36,669 nucleotides of DNA from Treponema sp. (GTDB taxonomy: Bacteria; Spirochaetota; Spirochaetia; Treponematales; Breznakiellaceae), in NCBI GenBank assembly GCA_031256635.1, contig JAIRQF010000035.1:1-36669 (forward strand), read 5' to 3'. Under the pieces are notes generated by a model that worked only from the letters and a program-made list of their open reading frames with translations, was not told the DNA's origin and searched no databases. Below are positions 12,120 through 36,669 of this stretch, piece by piece (position 1 is the first letter of the stretch; each line of letters opens with the position of its first letter). The position numbers were made by a program, and so were the translations under genes.

Positions 12120-14646
12120 CGTTAATTTATCGGAAATGAAATGGGAGGTTAAGCAATGTCAATGTACGGACTGCCTGATGCCCGATTGCGGCGGGCAGTG
12201 GTTTGCGGCAAGCGTTCCGGGTGCTGTTCACTATGATCTTGTTAAGGCCGGGAAGCTTGCAAATCCCTACAGCAGTACCAAAGCCGCCTTTGATTCCCAA
12301 TGGGTAATTCAAAGCGACTGGCTTTACAAAACTGAGTTTGAAACACCGAAGAACATTAACGCGTCGAAATATATTATTCTCCATTTTGACGGAATTGATA
12401 CTTACAGTGAAATTTGGCTTAACGGAAAAATGCAGGGTATTACATCTAACGCATACAGAACATACGATTTTTTTATTGAACCTGCGCTTTTCAAAATAAA
12501 TGAAAAAAACATTCTCTGTGTCAGAATTAAATCGCATGAAAGGATGATATCCTCCAAAATTGATGAAACCGAGAAACGCCTTAATAACGGACGTTCTGTC
12601 GAAGGCACTTTGGGTAAATCATTGATACGCCGGTACCAGCGCAGTTTTTTCGCCGGGTCAAGCCTTCTTAATCTTGGAACAGGCGTTCTTGGCATGGGGA
12701 TTGTCCGGGGTGTAAACCTTATCATGTATCCAGGAGCGTATATTACTGACTGCTGCTTAAGAACGATTTCTATTGCCTGCAACAATAATTACGCTGAATG
12801 TAAAATACTTTTATCTGTAAAAAATCCATTGGAAAGCAGCGCAGTTTCCCGCGTAAGAATATCGATCACATCTCCTGACAATAAGAATGTTTTTAATGCG
12901 GAGATTCCTGTTGAATCGGAAAATACGGAAATACCCCTTGTAATGGAAAATCCTCATCTTTGGTGGCCGCGTTTTTACGGAGAGCCGAATCTTTATTCAC
13001 TCAATGTAAAAATTTTTCAGGACGGAAAATTAACGGACGAAATTAATCAAAGAGCCGGTATTAAAAAAAGCGAACTTGTTACAAAAGATGAGAGCGGGAG
13101 GAATACTTTTTACTTTAAAATCAACGGGCGTAAAATTTTTGTACACGGGCAGAATCATATCCCGCTTGACTATATTAAATCTTACCGCTCCAGGGAAGAA
13201 TATTTAAGAATTTTTGAAATGCTGGAAAATCAGCATGTAAATATGATTCGAATCTGGGGCGGCGGGGTAGTTGAAGATGATTTCTTTTATGAAGAGTGTG
13301 ACAATAGAGGAATCATGCTTTTTCAGGATTTTTATCTTCATTCCAATCAATATCCCGATTATGACAATGAGTGGGTAGATGAGTTCCTTGGCGAATCAAA
13401 CGGGCTTTTAAAAAAAATTAGGGTTCATCCTTCGTTATGTGTTATCTGCGGAGGCAATGAAACCCAGGAAGGCTGGGATTGCTGGGGATGGAAACAGTCA
13501 TCAGATCGTTTTTACGGAGAGCGGCTTGTTACGGATGATCTCCGTGAAATAAGCGCCAATCTCTGTCCGGAGCTTCCTTATATCGTGAACTCTCCCCATG
13601 GCGGGAAAAACTGCCAGTCCCCGGTTGAAGGCGAATCTCACATTTGGGGAAATTTTTTCAACAGCACAAAAGACCCGCTTTTTGTTACTGAAACCTGCTG
13701 GACGCAGGAAAGCTATTCAAGACCTGAAACATTAAGGAAAATCATGGATATTGATGTTGATGAGTATGCGGGAAAAAACTGGGCGGAAAAGTGGAAGGAA
13801 ACGACATCACTTGGCTTTTTAAACAGATATCCCTACAGCGACTGGTTTGAAAGTTCAAGTTTAAGGGCATATCTTCACAGCCTTGAAATTGAGCAAATGC
13901 GCGCGGATTATAACGCGCTTAATATGCTCCGTTTTAACAGCCCAAATAACAACGGAATAATCTACTGGTCATTTAACAAGGGTGGCCCGCTTTTCCAGTT
14001 CGGATGTGTTGATTATTGCGGTTATCCGATGATGTCCTATTATGCCGTAAAAAGAGCCTTTGCGCCTGTTTCAGTCTTTGCCCGCCGTGATGTCAGCGAT
14101 ATATCGGTGATGTTATCAAACCACAGCTCTGAATCCAGGAAAGTCAATGTGCAGGTATTTCATATGAACAAAGAAGGGAAGGAGCTTGGGTATTGGGAAA
14201 GAGAAGTGTGCGTAGCTGAAGCAACGGGCTGTGATTCAGAAAAACCTATGGAAGTTTTCAGGCTTTGCGGCCTTTATGAAAAAGTACAGGAGCGGACAGA
14301 AGAAATAATCTATGTCTGCGCTTGTTTTAATGATTTATTATTTGCTGATGACATGCTTTTTTTCTGTTCCTATGCGGAATTTAACGGTATTTACAGCCCG
14401 CTATCGGTGAAAATTGATAAAAATGGTGATAACAGATGGCAGATTAGTATTGAAGCCAATGAACCGGTTCGCATGATTGAGATTGAAAGTAATCAAAAAC
14501 TCCTTTTTAGCGATAATTATTTTCCAATGATACCCAAAAAAAACAAAGTTATTGAAGCGAATATACTTGAAAAAACGTCGCTTGAAGCGGCAGCGCTGAC
14601 CATTAATATTTTCGGCTGTAAAGAAAAACAACAATTTTTTCTTTAA
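12112..14646 (+). CDS. Beta-mannosidase, glycoside hydrolase family 2
   Basis: The product has 844 residues, the usual length of family GH2 beta-mannosidases (EC 3.2.1.25), which release mannose from the non-reducing end of beta-mannosides. Domains in order are an N-terminal jelly roll (about 1-190), an immunoglobulin-like domain (about 200-310), a TIM barrel (about 320-650) and C-terminal beta domains. MIRIWGGGVVEDDFFYE and VICGGNE place the acid/base at Glu450. FVTETCW gives the nucleophile at Glu527. No signal peptide is present, so it acts in the cytoplasm on imported oligosaccharides. The start overlaps the GntR gene by 8 bases. The ABC importer genes that follow fit a mannooligosaccharide-use role. 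Confidence 0.92.
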   Translation: MNSVNLSEMKWEVKQCQCTDCLMPDCGGQWFAASVPGAVHYDLVKAGKLANPYSSTKAAFDSQWVIQSDWLYKTEFETPKNINASKYIILHFDGIDTYSEIWLNGKMQGITSNAYRTYDFFIEPALFKINEKNILCVRIKSHERMISSKIDETEKRLNNGRSVEGTLGKSLIRRYQRSFFAGSSLLNLGTGVLGMGIVRGVNLIMYPGAYITDCCLRTISIACNNNYAECKILLSVKNPLESSAVSRVRISITSPDNKNVFNAEIPVESENTEIPLVMENPHLWWPRFYGEPNLYSLNVKIFQDGKLTDEINQRAGIKKSELVTKDESGRNTFYFKINGRKIFVHGQNHIPLDYIKSYRSREEYLRIFEMLENQHVNMIRIWGGGVVEDDFFYEECDNRGIMLFQDFYLHSNQYPDYDNEWVDEFLGESNGLLKKIRVHPSLCVICGGNETQEGWDCWGWKQSSDRFYGERLVTDDLREISANLCPELPYIVNSPHGGKNCQSPVEGESHIWGNFFNSTKDPLFVTETCWTQESYSRPETLRKIMDIDVDEYAGKNWAEKWKETTSLGFLNRYPYSDWFESSSLRAYLHSLEIEQMRADYNALNMLRFNSPNNNGIIYWSFNKGGPLFQFGCVDYCGYPMMSYYAVKRAFAPVSVFARRDVSDISVMLSNHSSESRKVNVQVFHMNKEGKELGYWEREVCVAEATGCDSEKPMEVFRLCGLYEKVQERTEEIIYVCACFNDLLFADDMLFFCSYAEFNGIYSPLSVKIDKNGDNRWQISIEANEPVRMIEIESNQKLLFSDNYFPMIPKKNKVIEANILEKTSLEAAALTINIFGCKEKQQFFL

Positions 14647-14651
14647 TCCGG

Positions 14652-14705
14652 TTGTCAGATATCAGAGAACCGTATATAATGTATAATCAATTCACCGGAT
14701 GGTGA
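14652..14705 (+). promoter_or_regulatory. Promoter and possible operator of the sugar-binding protein gene
   Basis: TTGTCA (14652-14657), a 17-base spacer and TATAAT (14675-14680) form a strong promoter. A second TATAAT is at 14682-14687. Just downstream, TCACC (14692-14696) and GGTGA (14701-14705) form an inverted repeat that could be a repressor site or a leader hairpin. AGGAGG at 14716-14721 is the ribosome binding site. Confidence 0.65.
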
Positions 14706-14726
14706 GAAATATTTTAGGAGGAAAGA

Positions 14727-16118
14727 ATGAAAATCAACAAGGTTTTTCTTATTGGGTTTGCATTACTGCTTGCAGTAAGCATGACAGCAATGGCAAGCGG
14801 CGTTAATCAACAACATTCGGGACCGGTAACTACTATCACTGTTTGGTCAAACGATGCCCATGATAAGGCTGAAATGGATTTACTGGTAGCCCAATTTAAC
14901 GCAACTACAGGCGCGCAGAAAGGTATTCGCGTTGAATACTCTGTATACGGCGCTGACTGGAATACTGCCATTAATATGGCTTTGGAAACAGACAGAGCCC
15001 CCGATATGTTTAAAGCAGGATTTGCGAACTATGAAAATTTCCAGGCAATGGGCAGGTTCCTTCCCTGGACAGATATCCCTGGTATTCAGGATATTCTTGA
15101 AAAACAGGCTCCCTATCACAGAAACCTGTCTTCTACATTCGGCGGAGTGCCTTATGGTGTAGTTGTGTACGGTAATATCCCAGGCTTCCATTACAACAAA
15201 GCGCTTCTTCGTCAAGCCGGATTCTCAGCGCCTCCCAAAACATGGGCGGAACTGGAACAGATGTCAATCGCAATCAGCCGCCTTGCATCGGATGTTTACG
15301 GAATCGGTATCCCTCTTCTTTGGGCTCCGGATTTCTGCCATTGGGTAACAGAATATGCCGCGACAAATTCAATCGGGCACATGTACTGGAACTTTACCAC
15401 AGGCACTTATAACTTTGCGGCTTTCACTGAATATTTTGAAATGCTTTCACGCATCAGGGAAGCAGGAGCGGTATTCCCAGGAATGGAATCTCTTACTGAC
15501 GATCAGCTACGCGCGCAGTTTGCCGCAGGTAAAGTAGGATTTATCTGGGGCGCAAGCTGGAATGTCGGCGTTCTCTATGATCAATTCCCCTTCCAGCCGT
15601 CCGACGGATGGGATTTCGCTCCCTTCCCGGTCAAGGATGTAAATAATCAATTCAGAGTGCCTTTCTCTGCAAGCGCAGCATTCCATGTCAGTTCACAGGT
15701 TAGAAATAATCCTACAAAACTCGCAGGAATAGGGGATGTTATCAGGCTCTTTATTGGTGATGATACTCAGCGCCTTATGTTTACAACAGGCAAACGCTTC
15801 CCGATCAGGACTGATATTACCTCCAGCGCGGCTCCGGCAGTGCGTCCTCAGTGGACAAGTATCGGTAACAGCTCACCGCTTGGTTTTGCCACAATGCCTT
15901 CAGCTCCCCATAACCTGCTTGCGGTCGAAGGACCGGACAGAGCAGCCGTTATAGGTCAGATTCTCACAGGCCAGATACCCACTTCCGGTATCCGCGCCGC
16001 TCTTACAGACCTTGACACACGCATGAACGCCGCCTTTAATCAGGCTGTACAGCGCGGTCAGCTTGTCAGGACAAATTATATTTCTCCCAATTTTGAAACA
16101 CAGTTAAGAGCGAGATAA
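14727..16118 (+). CDS. ABC sugar transporter, extracellular solute-binding protein (family 1)
   Basis: The product has 463 residues. The signal peptide (about 1-23) ends AMA before SG; no lipobox cysteine is seen, so it is probably periplasmic. The mature start TTITVWSNDAHDKAEMDLLVAQFN, and later DFFKAGFANY-like and WAELEQMSIAISRLA segments, are typical of CUT1 sugar-binding proteins. With the two permeases downstream it forms an importer for an oligosaccharide, probably a mannoside given the upstream GH2 enzyme (inference). It has its own promoter and Shine-Dalgarno. A terminator after it should make it more abundant than the permeases. Confidence 0.92.
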   Translation: MKINKVFLIGFALLLAVSMTAMASGVNQQHSGPVTTITVWSNDAHDKAEMDLLVAQFNATTGAQKGIRVEYSVYGADWNTAINMALETDRAPDMFKAGFANYENFQAMGRFLPWTDIPGIQDILEKQAPYHRNLSSTFGGVPYGVVVYGNIPGFHYNKALLRQAGFSAPPKTWAELEQMSIAISRLASDVYGIGIPLLWAPDFCHWVTEYAATNSIGHMYWNFTTGTYNFAAFTEYFEMLSRIREAGAVFPGMESLTDDQLRAQFAAGKVGFIWGASWNVGVLYDQFPFQPSDGWDFAPFPVKDVNNQFRVPFSASAAFHVSSQVRNNPTKLAGIGDVIRLFIGDDTQRLMFTTGKRFPIRTDITSSAAPAVRPQWTSIGNSSPLGFATMPSAPHNLLAVEGPDRAAVIGQILTGQIPTSGIRAALTDLDTRMNAAFNQAVQRGQLVRTNYISPNFETQLRAR

Positions 16119-34005: not shown

Positions 34006-35217
34006 TTATATTGAATCAAGCGGACTTTTGATTTTTAAAATACTGCGTTTTGCGACATGAGTGTAGCGTTCTGTTGTGCGGATACTTGAATGACCGAGAA
34101 GATCCTGAATGTAGCGTATATCTGTACCGTTTTCCAGAAGATGTGTCGCGAAAGTGTGCCGCAGGCTGTGAATTGATATGTTCTTTATGATTCCGGCATT
34201 TTGCACAGCTTTTTCAAAAATACGCTGTGCAGAGCGGATTGTCAAATGCCTTGTTTTATTCTGTCCGGGGAAAATCCATTTATCAATATTGAATTGTTCA
34301 TAATAGTCCTGAATAAAAACAGCCGCTTTATCTGAAAGCATTGTATAACGATCTTTTCCGCCTTTACCCTGCTTTATATAAATTACCTGGCGATGTAAAT
34401 CAACATGTTCTTTTTTTAATGAAACAACTTCACTAACGCGCAAGCCTGAAGAATATGCGAGCATTAATAATAATTTGTGTTTATGGTTTTTCTCAATTCT
34501 GAATATTTTAATTATTTCTTCGGCGGAAAGAACAACAGGAAGTATTTTATTATGATCAGGACGTTTTTGCTCCCTTATACGATCGTCTTTAAAAATATGT
34601 TTGTAGAAAAATTTTATCGCGCTTATTGCAAGGTTTAACGAGGCAGCTGAATAACCGCGTTCCTTTTCCATTATTGCCAGAAATCCTGTCACATTATCAG
34701 GGTAGATTTCTTTCGGAGATTTTTGGAGTGTATTGCAAAGCAGTCTGTTGTAATGAATATATGCTTTCCTTGTTTTTATACTAAATTTTCTAGAGCGCAT
34801 TTCCGCTTCAAGTTTATCAATATAGTATTCAGACAAGTACTCAATGAGAGCTTCAGCTTTTTGAGCACTTTTGTATTTTTTATGAGATACTATCTTTTGG
34901 TCTTGCCGGTTACTGTCCAGTAATGGTGATTCTGATGAAGAAATTTTTTTATCACTTTCATTTGAATATTCCAAAAATCCATAAATTTTAAGTTTTGAAT
35001 TGTAAGATTTCCCTGTTGTTTCATTATATACAACACATACTGCGCCAAAAAGATTAATTATTTTTTTTAAATCGATATCTTTTTTAAATATAAAGCCGTA
35101 ATAAACATTATCCCAAACACCGTTTGACTGAATTAATTGGTAGAAAATATCATTTTTATTACCATAAAAAGGAATTCTAACATTATTTCCATCATAAAAG
35201 AGATAGATCACATTCAT
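34006..35217 (-). CDS. Tyrosine recombinase, candidate atypical integron integrase
   Basis: The product has 403 residues. Residues about 128-210 are the SAM-like core-binding domain (YIDKLEAEMRSRKFSIKTR). The catalytic domain follows with Arg260 (SGLRVSEV), Lys285/288 (GKGGKDR), His350 and Arg353 (HSLRH), His376 (LLGH) and Tyr385 (ERYTHV), all present. The end KIKSPLDSI matches the SPLD tail shared by integron integrases and a group of Bacteroidetes recombinases. The 25-35 residue insert typical of IntI before the HxLRH motif is absent. Residues 1-120 are an extra domain (YLFYDGNNVRIPFYGN...) not recognised. It is read away from the cassette array, as classical intI is. No clear Shine-Dalgarno. 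Confidence 0.9.
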   Translation of the reverse strand: MNVIYLFYDGNNVRIPFYGNKNDIFYQLIQSNGVWDNVYYGFIFKKDIDLKKIINLFGAVCVVYNETTGKSYNSKLKIYGFLEYSNESDKKISSSESPLLDSNRQDQKIVSHKKYKSAQKAEALIEYLSEYYIDKLEAEMRSRKFSIKTRKAYIHYNRLLCNTLQKSPKEIYPDNVTGFLAIMEKERGYSAASLNLAISAIKFFYKHIFKDDRIREQKRPDHNKILPVVLSAEEIIKIFRIEKNHKHKLLLMLAYSSGLRVSEVVSLKKEHVDLHRQVIYIKQGKGGKDRYTMLSDKAAVFIQDYYEQFNIDKWIFPGQNKTRHLTIRSAQRIFEKAVQNAGIIKNISIHSLRHTFATHLLENGTDIRYIQDLLGHSSIRTTERYTHVAKRSILKIKSPLDSI

Positions 35218-35408
35218 ATTCGCCCCGTAAAATTTTAATATACGTGTCTTATTTAAGGCTGATGTGCTACTTACTTGATTTGTCTAAAATTTTGGACTGA
35301 TGTCTTTCCAATATCTATATTCTAAAGCTAATTGGTTAAAATTGCAATACATCTTTTTACTCACAAAGAAAGAATTTATACAATTAAAATTAGCTATATG
35401 TCGCTTTA

Positions 35409-35529
35409 TAACCTCATTTTGTAGGTTAGACGACGCTTTTATTCGTATAATATACATCTGTTGGTGTTAATGCGACATTCGCTTTATTAGAATTATTTGT
35501 ATGTTAGACGAATTTCGTCTAAAAGTAGT
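35409..35529 (+). other. Candidate attI recombination region
   Basis: The 391-base gap between recombinase and first cassette gene holds the following. The inverted repeat TAACCT/AGGTTA is at 35409-35428. GTTAGACGA occurs as direct repeats at 35425-35433 and 35503-35511. A perfect 19-base palindrome TTAGACGAATTTCGTCTAA is at 35504-35522. A GTTAAGC core (35528-35534) fits the integron consensus GTTRRRY, with the cut expected between 35528 and 35529. The left part (35218-35400) is AT-rich and shows no other feature. Assignment as attI rests on position and repeats only. Confidence 0.45.
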
Positions 35530-35560
35530 TAAGCGCAATTGAACAAAACATTAATTTATA

Positions 35561-35589
35561 TTGACAAGAACATATTATAATTTTATAAT
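35561..35589 (+). promoter_or_regulatory. Perfect consensus sigma70 promoter inside cassette 1
   Basis: TTGACA (35561-35566), a 17-base spacer and TATAAT (35584-35589), both exact consensus, 20 bases before the ATG. The cassette does not need an integron promoter. Confidence 0.85.
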
Positions 35590-35608
35590 ATCTATAAAGG
35601 AGAATATT

Positions 35609-36055
35609 ATGGAAATTGAAAAAAATAAAATGAATACGAAAAGCATTATAATAATCGCACTAGTAGCTACAATTGGTTCAATCCTTGGTGGATATATATT
35701 TAATGGATTAACTGGAAGAAGTAATGTTTTTGATAAAGCTTTAGTTGAGGCTGCAAATCAAATTAATCAAAATTTACCTATTATGGTGGATTCTGATACA
35801 AGATGGGATTCAACAATGGCATTTCCTGGGAAAGTGTTTTCATATTATTTCACAATTATAAATTATACTGTTGATGAAATTGATGCTGAAACATTTGAAA
35901 TAGAAATAAGACCGAATTTAATAAATAATATTAAAACAAATTCAGATATGAAGGATTTTAGGAATAATAAAGTAACACTTAATTACGTTTATAGAGATAA
36001 AAATAATATTGAAATTATTCAAATAAAAATTACTTATGAAGATTATAACAATTAA
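35609..36055 (+). CDS. Cassette-borne membrane-anchored small protein
   Basis: The product is 148 residues from the ATG at 35609, with AAAGGAG upstream. An in-frame TTG at 35561 is the -35 box itself and cannot be the start. One hydrophobic helix (about 12-30, IIIIALVATIGSILGGYIF) anchors it. The rest should lie outside the cytoplasm. The segment LPIMVDSDTRWDSTMAFPGKV (in part) and FTIINYTVDEID resemble, from memory, hypothetical proteins found in many bacteria including cassette arrays; their function is unknown. AT-rich codon use (AAT, ATA, AAA) differs from the neighbouring chromosome. The attC-like site starts 14 bases after the stop. Confidence 0.85.
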   Translation: MEIEKNKMNTKSIIIIALVATIGSILGGYIFNGLTGRSNVFDKALVEAANQINQNLPIMVDSDTRWDSTMAFPGKVFSYYFTIINYTVDEIDAETFEIEIRPNLINNIKTNSDMKDFRNNKVTLNYVYRDKNNIEIIQIKITYEDYNN

Positions 36056-36069
36056 AGTTGTTCAACTGC

Positions 36070-36242
36070 GCTTAACAAACGGTAACTGCTACGGGCGCTG
36101 TTCGCGCCCTCGGGGTTCGGTCGGCTAGGTCAGTCGCTACGCTCGTTCCCACGCCTTCCTCACCCACATTTTGCCATCCCTGGTCTTGCTACGCAAGCCC
36201 TTATTCGGGCTGGCAAAACGTCAGTTACCTAGAACGTTATAT
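36070..36242 (+). other. attC-like recombination site (173 bp)
   Basis: The left R box GCTTAAC (36070-36076) fits RYYYAAC exactly. The right GTTATAT (36236-36242) fits GTTRRRY at 6 of 7. Inside them, GGTAACTG (36081-36088) pairs perfectly with CAGTTACC (36222-36229), the L boxes, with short unpaired spacers between R and L as in known attC sites. The centre is GC-rich and folds: GGGCGC/GCGCCC at 36093-36109, TTTTGCCA/TGGCAAAA at 36169-36218 enclosing CTTGC/GCAAG and GCCC/GGGC. It is longer than most attC sites but within reach of the long VCR-like ones. It directly follows the cassette gene. Confidence 0.65.
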
Positions 36243-36270
36243 GCAATATGCCCTAACATTTTCTGTGATA

Positions 36271-36299
36271 TTGACATAAAAATAAAAAATATTTAAATT
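36271..36299 (+). promoter_or_regulatory. Possible promoter of cassette 2
   Basis: TTGACA (36271-36276) is exact. The best -10 at 17 bases is TAAATT (36294-36299); a better TATAGT (36299-36304) has too long a spacer. AAAGGTGG before the ATG at 36317 is the ribosome site. Confidence 0.4.
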
Positions 36300-36316
36300 A
36301 TAGTAAAGGTGGAAGA

Positions 36317-36669
36317 ATGAAATTTATTATAATTGGTTCCGGTGGGTGTGTTTCAATCCCAAGGGCATTGTGCCAATGTAAAGTATGTGTTGAAGCAAGA
36401 GAAAAAGGAAAACCTTATTCCCGTTGTAGCAGTAGTTTATATTTTGAGGATATTTCATTACTTATTGATACTCCAGAAGATATAAATATTGCATTAAATA
36501 ATGCAAATATAAAGTCAGTGGATTATATTTCATACAGTCATTGGGACCCGGATCATACTCTTGGAATGAGAATTATTGAACAATTGCGGCTTCAATGGCT
36601 TGATTATTTCAAAAATAAAAAACCAGAAAATCCAATAACAGTATATTGTTCAAATGGAGTAATGAAGGA
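36317..36669 (+). CDS. Metallo-beta-lactamase-fold hydrolase, PhnP-like, 3'-truncated by the window edge
   Basis: The visible 117 residues begin FIIIGSGGCVSIPRALCQCKVC, with the Cys-rich N-terminal loop seen in PhnP-like proteins (CxCxxC). They continue with LLIDTPEDINIAL and the metal motif SHWDPDHTLGMR, the HxxxDH metal-binding signature of the fold. Relatives are phosphodiesterases acting on cyclic phosphates or nucleotides; the substrate here is not known. The gene is AT-rich, as in cassette 1, and starts 81 bases after the attC-like right core. It is therefore the likely gene of a second cassette. The C-terminal part is outside the window. Confidence 0.85.
   Translation, partial: MKFIIIGSGGCVSIPRALCQCKVCVEAREKGKPYSRCSSSLYFEDISLLIDTPEDINIALNNANIKSVDYISYSHWDPDHTLGMRIIEQLRLQWLDYFKNKKPENPITVYCSNGVMK

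Follow-up and report, generated by a model that had tools for sequence, protein, structure and literature searches.

An integron-like cassette array beside a tyrosine recombinase without the IntI insert in a treponeme-like spirochaete

The last part of a 36,669-nucleotide Treponema contig, the whole of which we call the window, carries a tyrosine recombinase beside an attI site and a cassette array. We read the locus as a chromosomal integron in a treponeme-like spirochaete, with an integrase whose tyrosine-recombinase lineage either never possessed or can do without the insert (I2 helix) of the integron integrase IntI, and we put the probability of this reading at about 0.88, with recombination itself inferred. 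We class the system by its anatomy as an integron and leave it outside the IntI family. What the sequences demonstrate is the platform and its attI, the limits of the cassettes, the capacity of the sites to fold, a link between the type of enzyme and the type of attC and, in a relative, a precise duplication of recent date; recombination by the insert-less protein, attI x attC catalysis included, is inferred, there being no recombination data. A sequence-only reading had left the choice between a novel integrase acting on folded attC and another recombinase that happened to lie beside an array, and the arrays of relatives, the tree and the enzyme's own attI favor the former.

The integrase, attI and cassettes of the window

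The sequence-only reading described a recombinase facing divergently an array with attC-like and attI-like sites, and this arrangement is what we observe in Table 1. The attI core is TCGTCTAAAAGTA|GTTAAGCGC at 35515-35536, and the boxes of the attC are GCGCTTAAC (R''), GGTAACTG (L''), CAGTTACC (L') and GTTATATGC (R'). The window is an entire contig (C156) of a draft genome and terminates within the cassette array; only one complete attC is present because the contig ends at 36669, and three further sites of the same attC type lie on other contigs of the genome. The first nine bases at the boundary of cassette 1 (GTTAAGCGC) and the R'' of its own attC are exact reverse complements, and the match of the outer arms extends to 18 of 19 bases, the sole exception being position 11. 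The bottom strand of this attC is predicted to fold with a z of -3.5 (none of 200 shuffles was as good) and the top strand with a z of -2.0. A covariance model built from other genomes only recovered the site with 128.6 bits (E 6e-34). Rfam had no match within the window, and PADLOC reported nothing in the three window proteins.

Table 1. Features of the integron locus in the window
Feature	Position	Strand	Remarks
Insert-less tyrosine recombinase (putative integron integrase)	34006-35217	-	Complete ORF, 403 aa; the catalytic part begins near residue 130, after an N-terminal extension (1 to about 125)
Two imperfect 33-nt direct repeats adjoining attI	35401-35433 and 35479-35511	+	Each ends in GTTAGACGA; possible accessory integrase sites, role unknown
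attI	35504-35536	+	Imperfect inverted arms CGTCTAA / GTTAAGCGC around AAGTA; crossover G|TTA at 35528/35529
Cassette 1	35529-36236	+	From G|TT to G|TT
Cassette 1 ORF	35609-36055	+	148 aa; without family match
Outer arm, cassette 1 start	35528-35546	+	GTTAAGCGCA-A-TTGAACAA; complementary to 36058-36076 apart from position 11
Partner outer arm	36058-36076	+	TTGTTCAA-C-TGCGCTTAAC; position 11 is A/C in the top strand and G.T in the bottom strand
attC of cassette 1	36068-36244	-	Bottom strand is the predicted folded substrate; 8-bp L stem without bulge; spacers 6 nt (5') and 4 nt (3'); then multi-arm head
Cassette 2, incomplete	36237-36669	+	Cut by contig end
Cassette 2 ORF	36317->36669	+	Similar to MBL-fold metallohydrolases, with scores under the family cut-offs

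The recombinase is complete, and the catalytic residues and SPLD tail named in the sequence-only reading are indeed kept: R260, H350, R353, H376 and Y385, together with K285 and SPLD (398-401), are invariant across 10 aligned orthologs. That reading was also right that the IntI-specific insert is missing. The IntI profile TIGR02249 aligns to the protein in two pieces and leaves model positions ~178-231 (about 50) uncovered; its score of 204 bits is below the cut-off of 265 bits, and integron integrase is still the best-scoring profile. The spacing from GKG to HxLRH is 60-67 aa in the window protein and its relatives versus 104-108 aa in IntI, and against Vibrio cholerae IntIA (2A3V) about 25 query residues stand opposite about 67 in the insert region. 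An IntI-specific insert (I2 helix, patch III region), taken as a criterion, is not met by this recombinase.

An AlphaFold model made with 18 sequences has a pLDDT of 74 overall and about 90 in the catalytic part, and the N-terminal extension is poorly modelled, with pLDDT below 50 over residues 61-124. The nearest solved structure to this model is the integron integrase 2A3V (Z 22.3 over 258 residues). By eye, the extension has a similar pattern in both spirochaete integrase types (residues 1-60 of the recombinase and the N-terminus of T. denticola IntI); an accessory N-terminal domain shared by both types is possible on this basis alone.

Arrays in relatives

An ortholog of the recombinase is present in about 70 of 200 genomes of the same family, many copies lie at contig ends, and several ortholog-bearing contigs stop inside an attC. 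The sequence-only reading would have been refuted by a lack of further attC sites downstream in the genome, and it survives this test in that relatives carry long arrays. On the single 4.65-Mb contig of G012, the integrase (3,518,834-3,520,060) is followed by about 40 sites at 3,521,956-3,560,488 (39 kb), all on one strand, and G144 (single contig, 4.06 Mb) has sites over 27 kb (2,033,217-2,060,602). Of 39 adjacent pairs of sites, 34 have an R' nine-mer that is reverse-complementary to the R'' of the following site, versus 31 of 453 non-adjacent ones (p 4e-29), and chains of 3-18 linked sites occur in 33 of 168 loci, while none longer than two arose in 168 shuffles. Simple repeats as a source of the linked sites were ruled out, as R' hexamers vary along arrays, and two complete genomes and many genera rule out an assembly or binning artefact.

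The cassette ORFs run mainly in the direction of the array (17 of 18 in L113 and 31 of 37 in L300), and their products include NUDIX, GNAT, glyoxalase, MazE/PIN, HicB and SUKH proteins. One cassette occurs twice in a single array of G144 (L117 3282-4711; L301 ~14262-15687), with three differences in about 1.42 kb. The identity starts and ends at G|TTA, and the preceding attC is strongly different; this recent and precise duplication is the kind of trace left by cassette mobility. A reverse-transcriptase-like ORF, seen by eye and perhaps a group II intron, lies inside the cassette array of L200 (10621-11460). The 3.9-Mb complete genome of another relative holds an integrase copy lacking about 40 catalytic-domain residues (G142:C1:1987505-1988536), a fragment at 3,780,000 and seven attC sites, and is probably a decaying integron.

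Integrase and array are neighbors in 23 loci from the family and Brucepastera, with attI between them wherever it is readable. The attI consensus adjoins the integrase in the window, L066, L084, L086, L113 and L121, and relatives keep the attI layout of the window, 136-195 nt beyond the integrase. Orientation is another matter: elsewhere in the family and in Brucepastera, 21 loci have the array 3' of the integrase and running in its direction, and only the window and its close relative G160 have integrase and array divergent. The classical, divergent orientation of the window is the exception among its relatives. This count leaves out the close relatives G168, G157 and G180, which have too little sequence on the array side.

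Beyond treponemes, linked attC chains adjoin insert-less recombinases in Flavobacterium, Winogradskyella, Polaribacter, Arenibacter, Runella, Cytophagales, Saccharibacillus and phage contigs, and Paenibacillus loci have single sites that match the attC model. Seven IMG/VR contigs (L205, L211, L212, L218, L223, L227 and L251) have an insert-less recombinase of about 270 aa next to linked attC-like sites, and the phage-like contigs that were checked have thymidylate synthase, RNA ligase and homing endonucleases nearby; we take contigs of this type to carry phage-borne integron-like arrays. On a Dinoroseobacter plasmid (L291 3001-5088), an insert-less relative lies immediately beside an IS91-family transposase, with no array call there. 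Such related insert-less recombinases without visible arrays count against our reading.

attC anatomy and its coupling to enzyme type

A strict scan for RYYYAAC/GTTRRRY boxes missed the window's own attC and was dropped, and with a loose AAC/GTT scan the opposite strand matched about as often, while shuffles still reached 60% of the count. Since the loose scan is unspecific, our claims rest on a TAAC...ACGTTA scan (32 matches versus 4.4 in shuffles), the shuffled chain test and the covariance model. The consensus of 24 sites, read on the bottom strand, is an R arm, a 6-7 nt spacer, an unbulged L stem of 7-9 bp, a multi-arm head, L, a 3-4 nt spacer and R. The L stem has double compensatory changes at five of its seven pairs, and in every one of 32 sites the predicted fold is more stable for the bottom strand than for the top. 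The extrahelical (bulged) L-box base that serves as a criterion for canonical attC is not met.

The outer arms pair past the R box to about position 18, with position 11 excepted. There the cassette start has A and its partner, in the same orientation, has G in 37 of 37 arm pairs with 35 distinct arms (from L113, L300, L121, L084, L066 and the window), which makes the pair a mismatch (A/C) on the top strand and a wobble (G.T) on the bottom one. Firmicutes together with L199/L200 have the same pattern (8/8). Position 11 matches only 1 in 48 in Bacteroidetes arrays and 1 in 41 in phage arrays, where it is usually A/G, or G/A when read from the other strand. No extended outer arm was found in canonical arrays.

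The form of attC goes with the type of enzyme. Among loci that passed the chain test, an unbulged L box of at least 7 bp is present in none of the five insert-bearing loci, all with IntI from the viral set (L220, L252, L264, L267 and L276), versus nearly all insert-less loci. Using the covariance model, R1-type attC was found in 48 of 51 genomes with an insert-less integrase versus none of 15 with canonical IntI (Fisher p 3e-12), five of the latter belonging to the same family as the window. As this tally draws on manually selected genomes that are related to one another, the p-values imply more independence than exists and are only a guide. Three of the 51 integrase-bearing genomes are without an R1-type site, and seven family genomes have sites with no integrase match, either as drafts or as integrase-less arrays. 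Three of four canonical Treponematales arrays gave no exact-link chain of at least three, and the canonical control therefore consists of one of them plus the five viral-contig loci.

The genomes with sites and no integrase match, along with the many CALIN clusters found in surveys (PMC9668308, PMC8618304), could suggest that an ordinary IntI, located elsewhere or since lost, made the attC cluster and that the unrelated Xer-like recombinase lies next to it by chance. We consider this very unlikely, as the adjacency recurs across the 23 loci with attI between, IntI-bearing genomes lack R1-type attC, and similar enzymes adjoin arrays in Bacteroidetes, Saccharibacillus and phage contigs. Moreover, canonical IntI was not found above the cut-off in any of 13 array-bearing genomes tested, complete ones included.

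A different objection concerns the substrate. The protein could act as Xer does on double-stranded (or cruciform) sites, and the attC hairpin would then be a mere by-product of inverted core sites. The attI does consist of two inverted arms around a 5-7 bp center, like an Xer core site, the L stem has no extrahelical base, and insert-less Xer relatives work on duplex DNA. Against this, the L stem and head covary across 60-160 nt, each cassette has an R' matched to its own R'' in place of a fixed sequence, and the two strands are consistently unequal in stability and at position 11, so that we regard action on duplex sites as unlikely. A single bottom strand of attC as the substrate is what we infer instead.

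Enzyme lineage, proposed mechanism and known systems

The maximum-likelihood tree contains 72 proteins, and sparsely filled columns were removed, so the insert is left out of it. Canonical IntI forms a single clade (100/100) that excludes the window-type proteins even without the insert columns, and the orthologs of the same family form a clade of their own with Brucepastera (100/99). A third group (85/85) holds array-linked enzymes of Bacteroidetes, Saccharibacillus and viral contigs together with relatives without a visible array. The four Xer rows, which served as outgroup, are again a separate clade (100/99). The sequence-only reading had named placement inside ordinary phage or Xer recombinases with a distinct core site as a refutation; the window protein branches apart from the tested Xer proteins and has an attI of its own beside it. 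Deep branches are weakly supported, and therefore the tree does not resolve whether insert-less integron integrases have a single origin.

This tree bears on whether the protein could be a decayed IntI that lost its insert and sits beside a fossil array, an idea to which we give hardly any credence. The integron integrase profile scores best for the window protein, SPLD-like tails occur in both kinds of enzyme, and both have N-terminal extensions among spirochaetes, as such decay would have it. However, the fully supported IntI clade excludes the insert-less proteins with the insert columns left out, the catalytic residues are invariant, the near-identical duplicated cassette points to recent activity, and the attC anatomy is consistently different.

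IntI distinguishes strands by docking extrahelical bases with its I2 helix, and the insert is regarded as what permits recombination of folded attC, its acquisition marking the shift from duplex to folded single-stranded sites (PMC7790495). If so, an insert-less mechanism must differ. We propose that the integrase would bind inverted core arms and that the folded bottom strand of attC would provide both arms on one strand. The predicted hairpin has an outer arm of about 10 (up to about 18) bp, an unpaired and unequal spacer (6-7 versus 3-4 nt), an uninterrupted L stem of 7-9 bp and a variable multi-arm head, and circular cassettes would be joined by the integrase at G|TTA in attI. Strand choice, we infer, is made through the unequal spacer and the invariant position-11 pair, whose wobble or mismatch may take the role of the extrahelical bases that are read by IntI and docked with I2. 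We find it fairly probable that there is a second integron class, in Spirochaetota, Bacteroidota, Bacillota and phages, that needs no I2 helix to recombine folded single-stranded attC and relies instead on unequal spacers and the G.T / A-C landmark at position 11 of a long outer arm.

No description of insert-less integron integrases was found in the literature searched, which did not extend to preprints and covered subscription journals sparsely. Search tools in IntegronFinder-based work identify IntI by its insert domain (PMC9668308), and insert-less integrases therefore fail that definition. Surveys that define the integrase by the insert would miss the insert-less integrons of gut spirochaetes, Bacteroidetes, Paenibacillus-like bacteria and phages. 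If such a second class exists, the insert would be one solution among others rather than the decisive innovation, and an integrase would be present in some of the arrays now reported as integrase-less; insert-less integrons may account for part of the puzzle of integrase-less attC arrays. A large group of insert-less integrons is a direct test of the I2-helix view (PMC7790495), and natural insert-less enzymes would be useful for reconstructing integron origins. Integrons would also be added to termite-gut Treponema, stated to lack them (Wu et al. 2013, PMC3607928), and to Bacteroidetes and Firmicutes, where they are called extremely rare (PMC9024848).

The chromosomal integrons of T. denticola and T. 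succinifaciens (PMC3607928) are alike in having an attI-cassette-attC array, a G|TTA crossover, small one-way genes and an N-terminally extended integrase. The inverted integrase orientation that the sequence-only reading gave for T. denticola agrees with that paper; this orientation, with the integrase reading towards attI, is common to most relatives of the window, whereas the window itself is divergent. The window type differs from the IntI-containing T. denticola type in having no insert and an attC of 140-180 nt in which the L stem is free of bulges, the spacers are of unequal length and the outer arms are long; with the same code, most sites of the T. denticola type measure about 60 nt and have a bulged base in L. 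VchIntIA (2A3V, the best PDB match) and IntI1 share the catalytic fold and residues and an SPLD-like tail with the window protein, but the latter is about 42 residues shorter between GKG and HxLRH and falls in a separate clade. XerA, XerC, XerD and tyrosine recombinases of the IS91 or TnpF type likewise lack the insert and are 30-46% identical to the window protein; Xer differs in its separate clade, and one IS91-linked and one TnpF locus that were inspected had no array call. Finally, tools that require the IntI-specific domain would report window-type arrays as CALIN (PMC9668308, PMC9024848), from which the window type differs in having an integrase and an attI.
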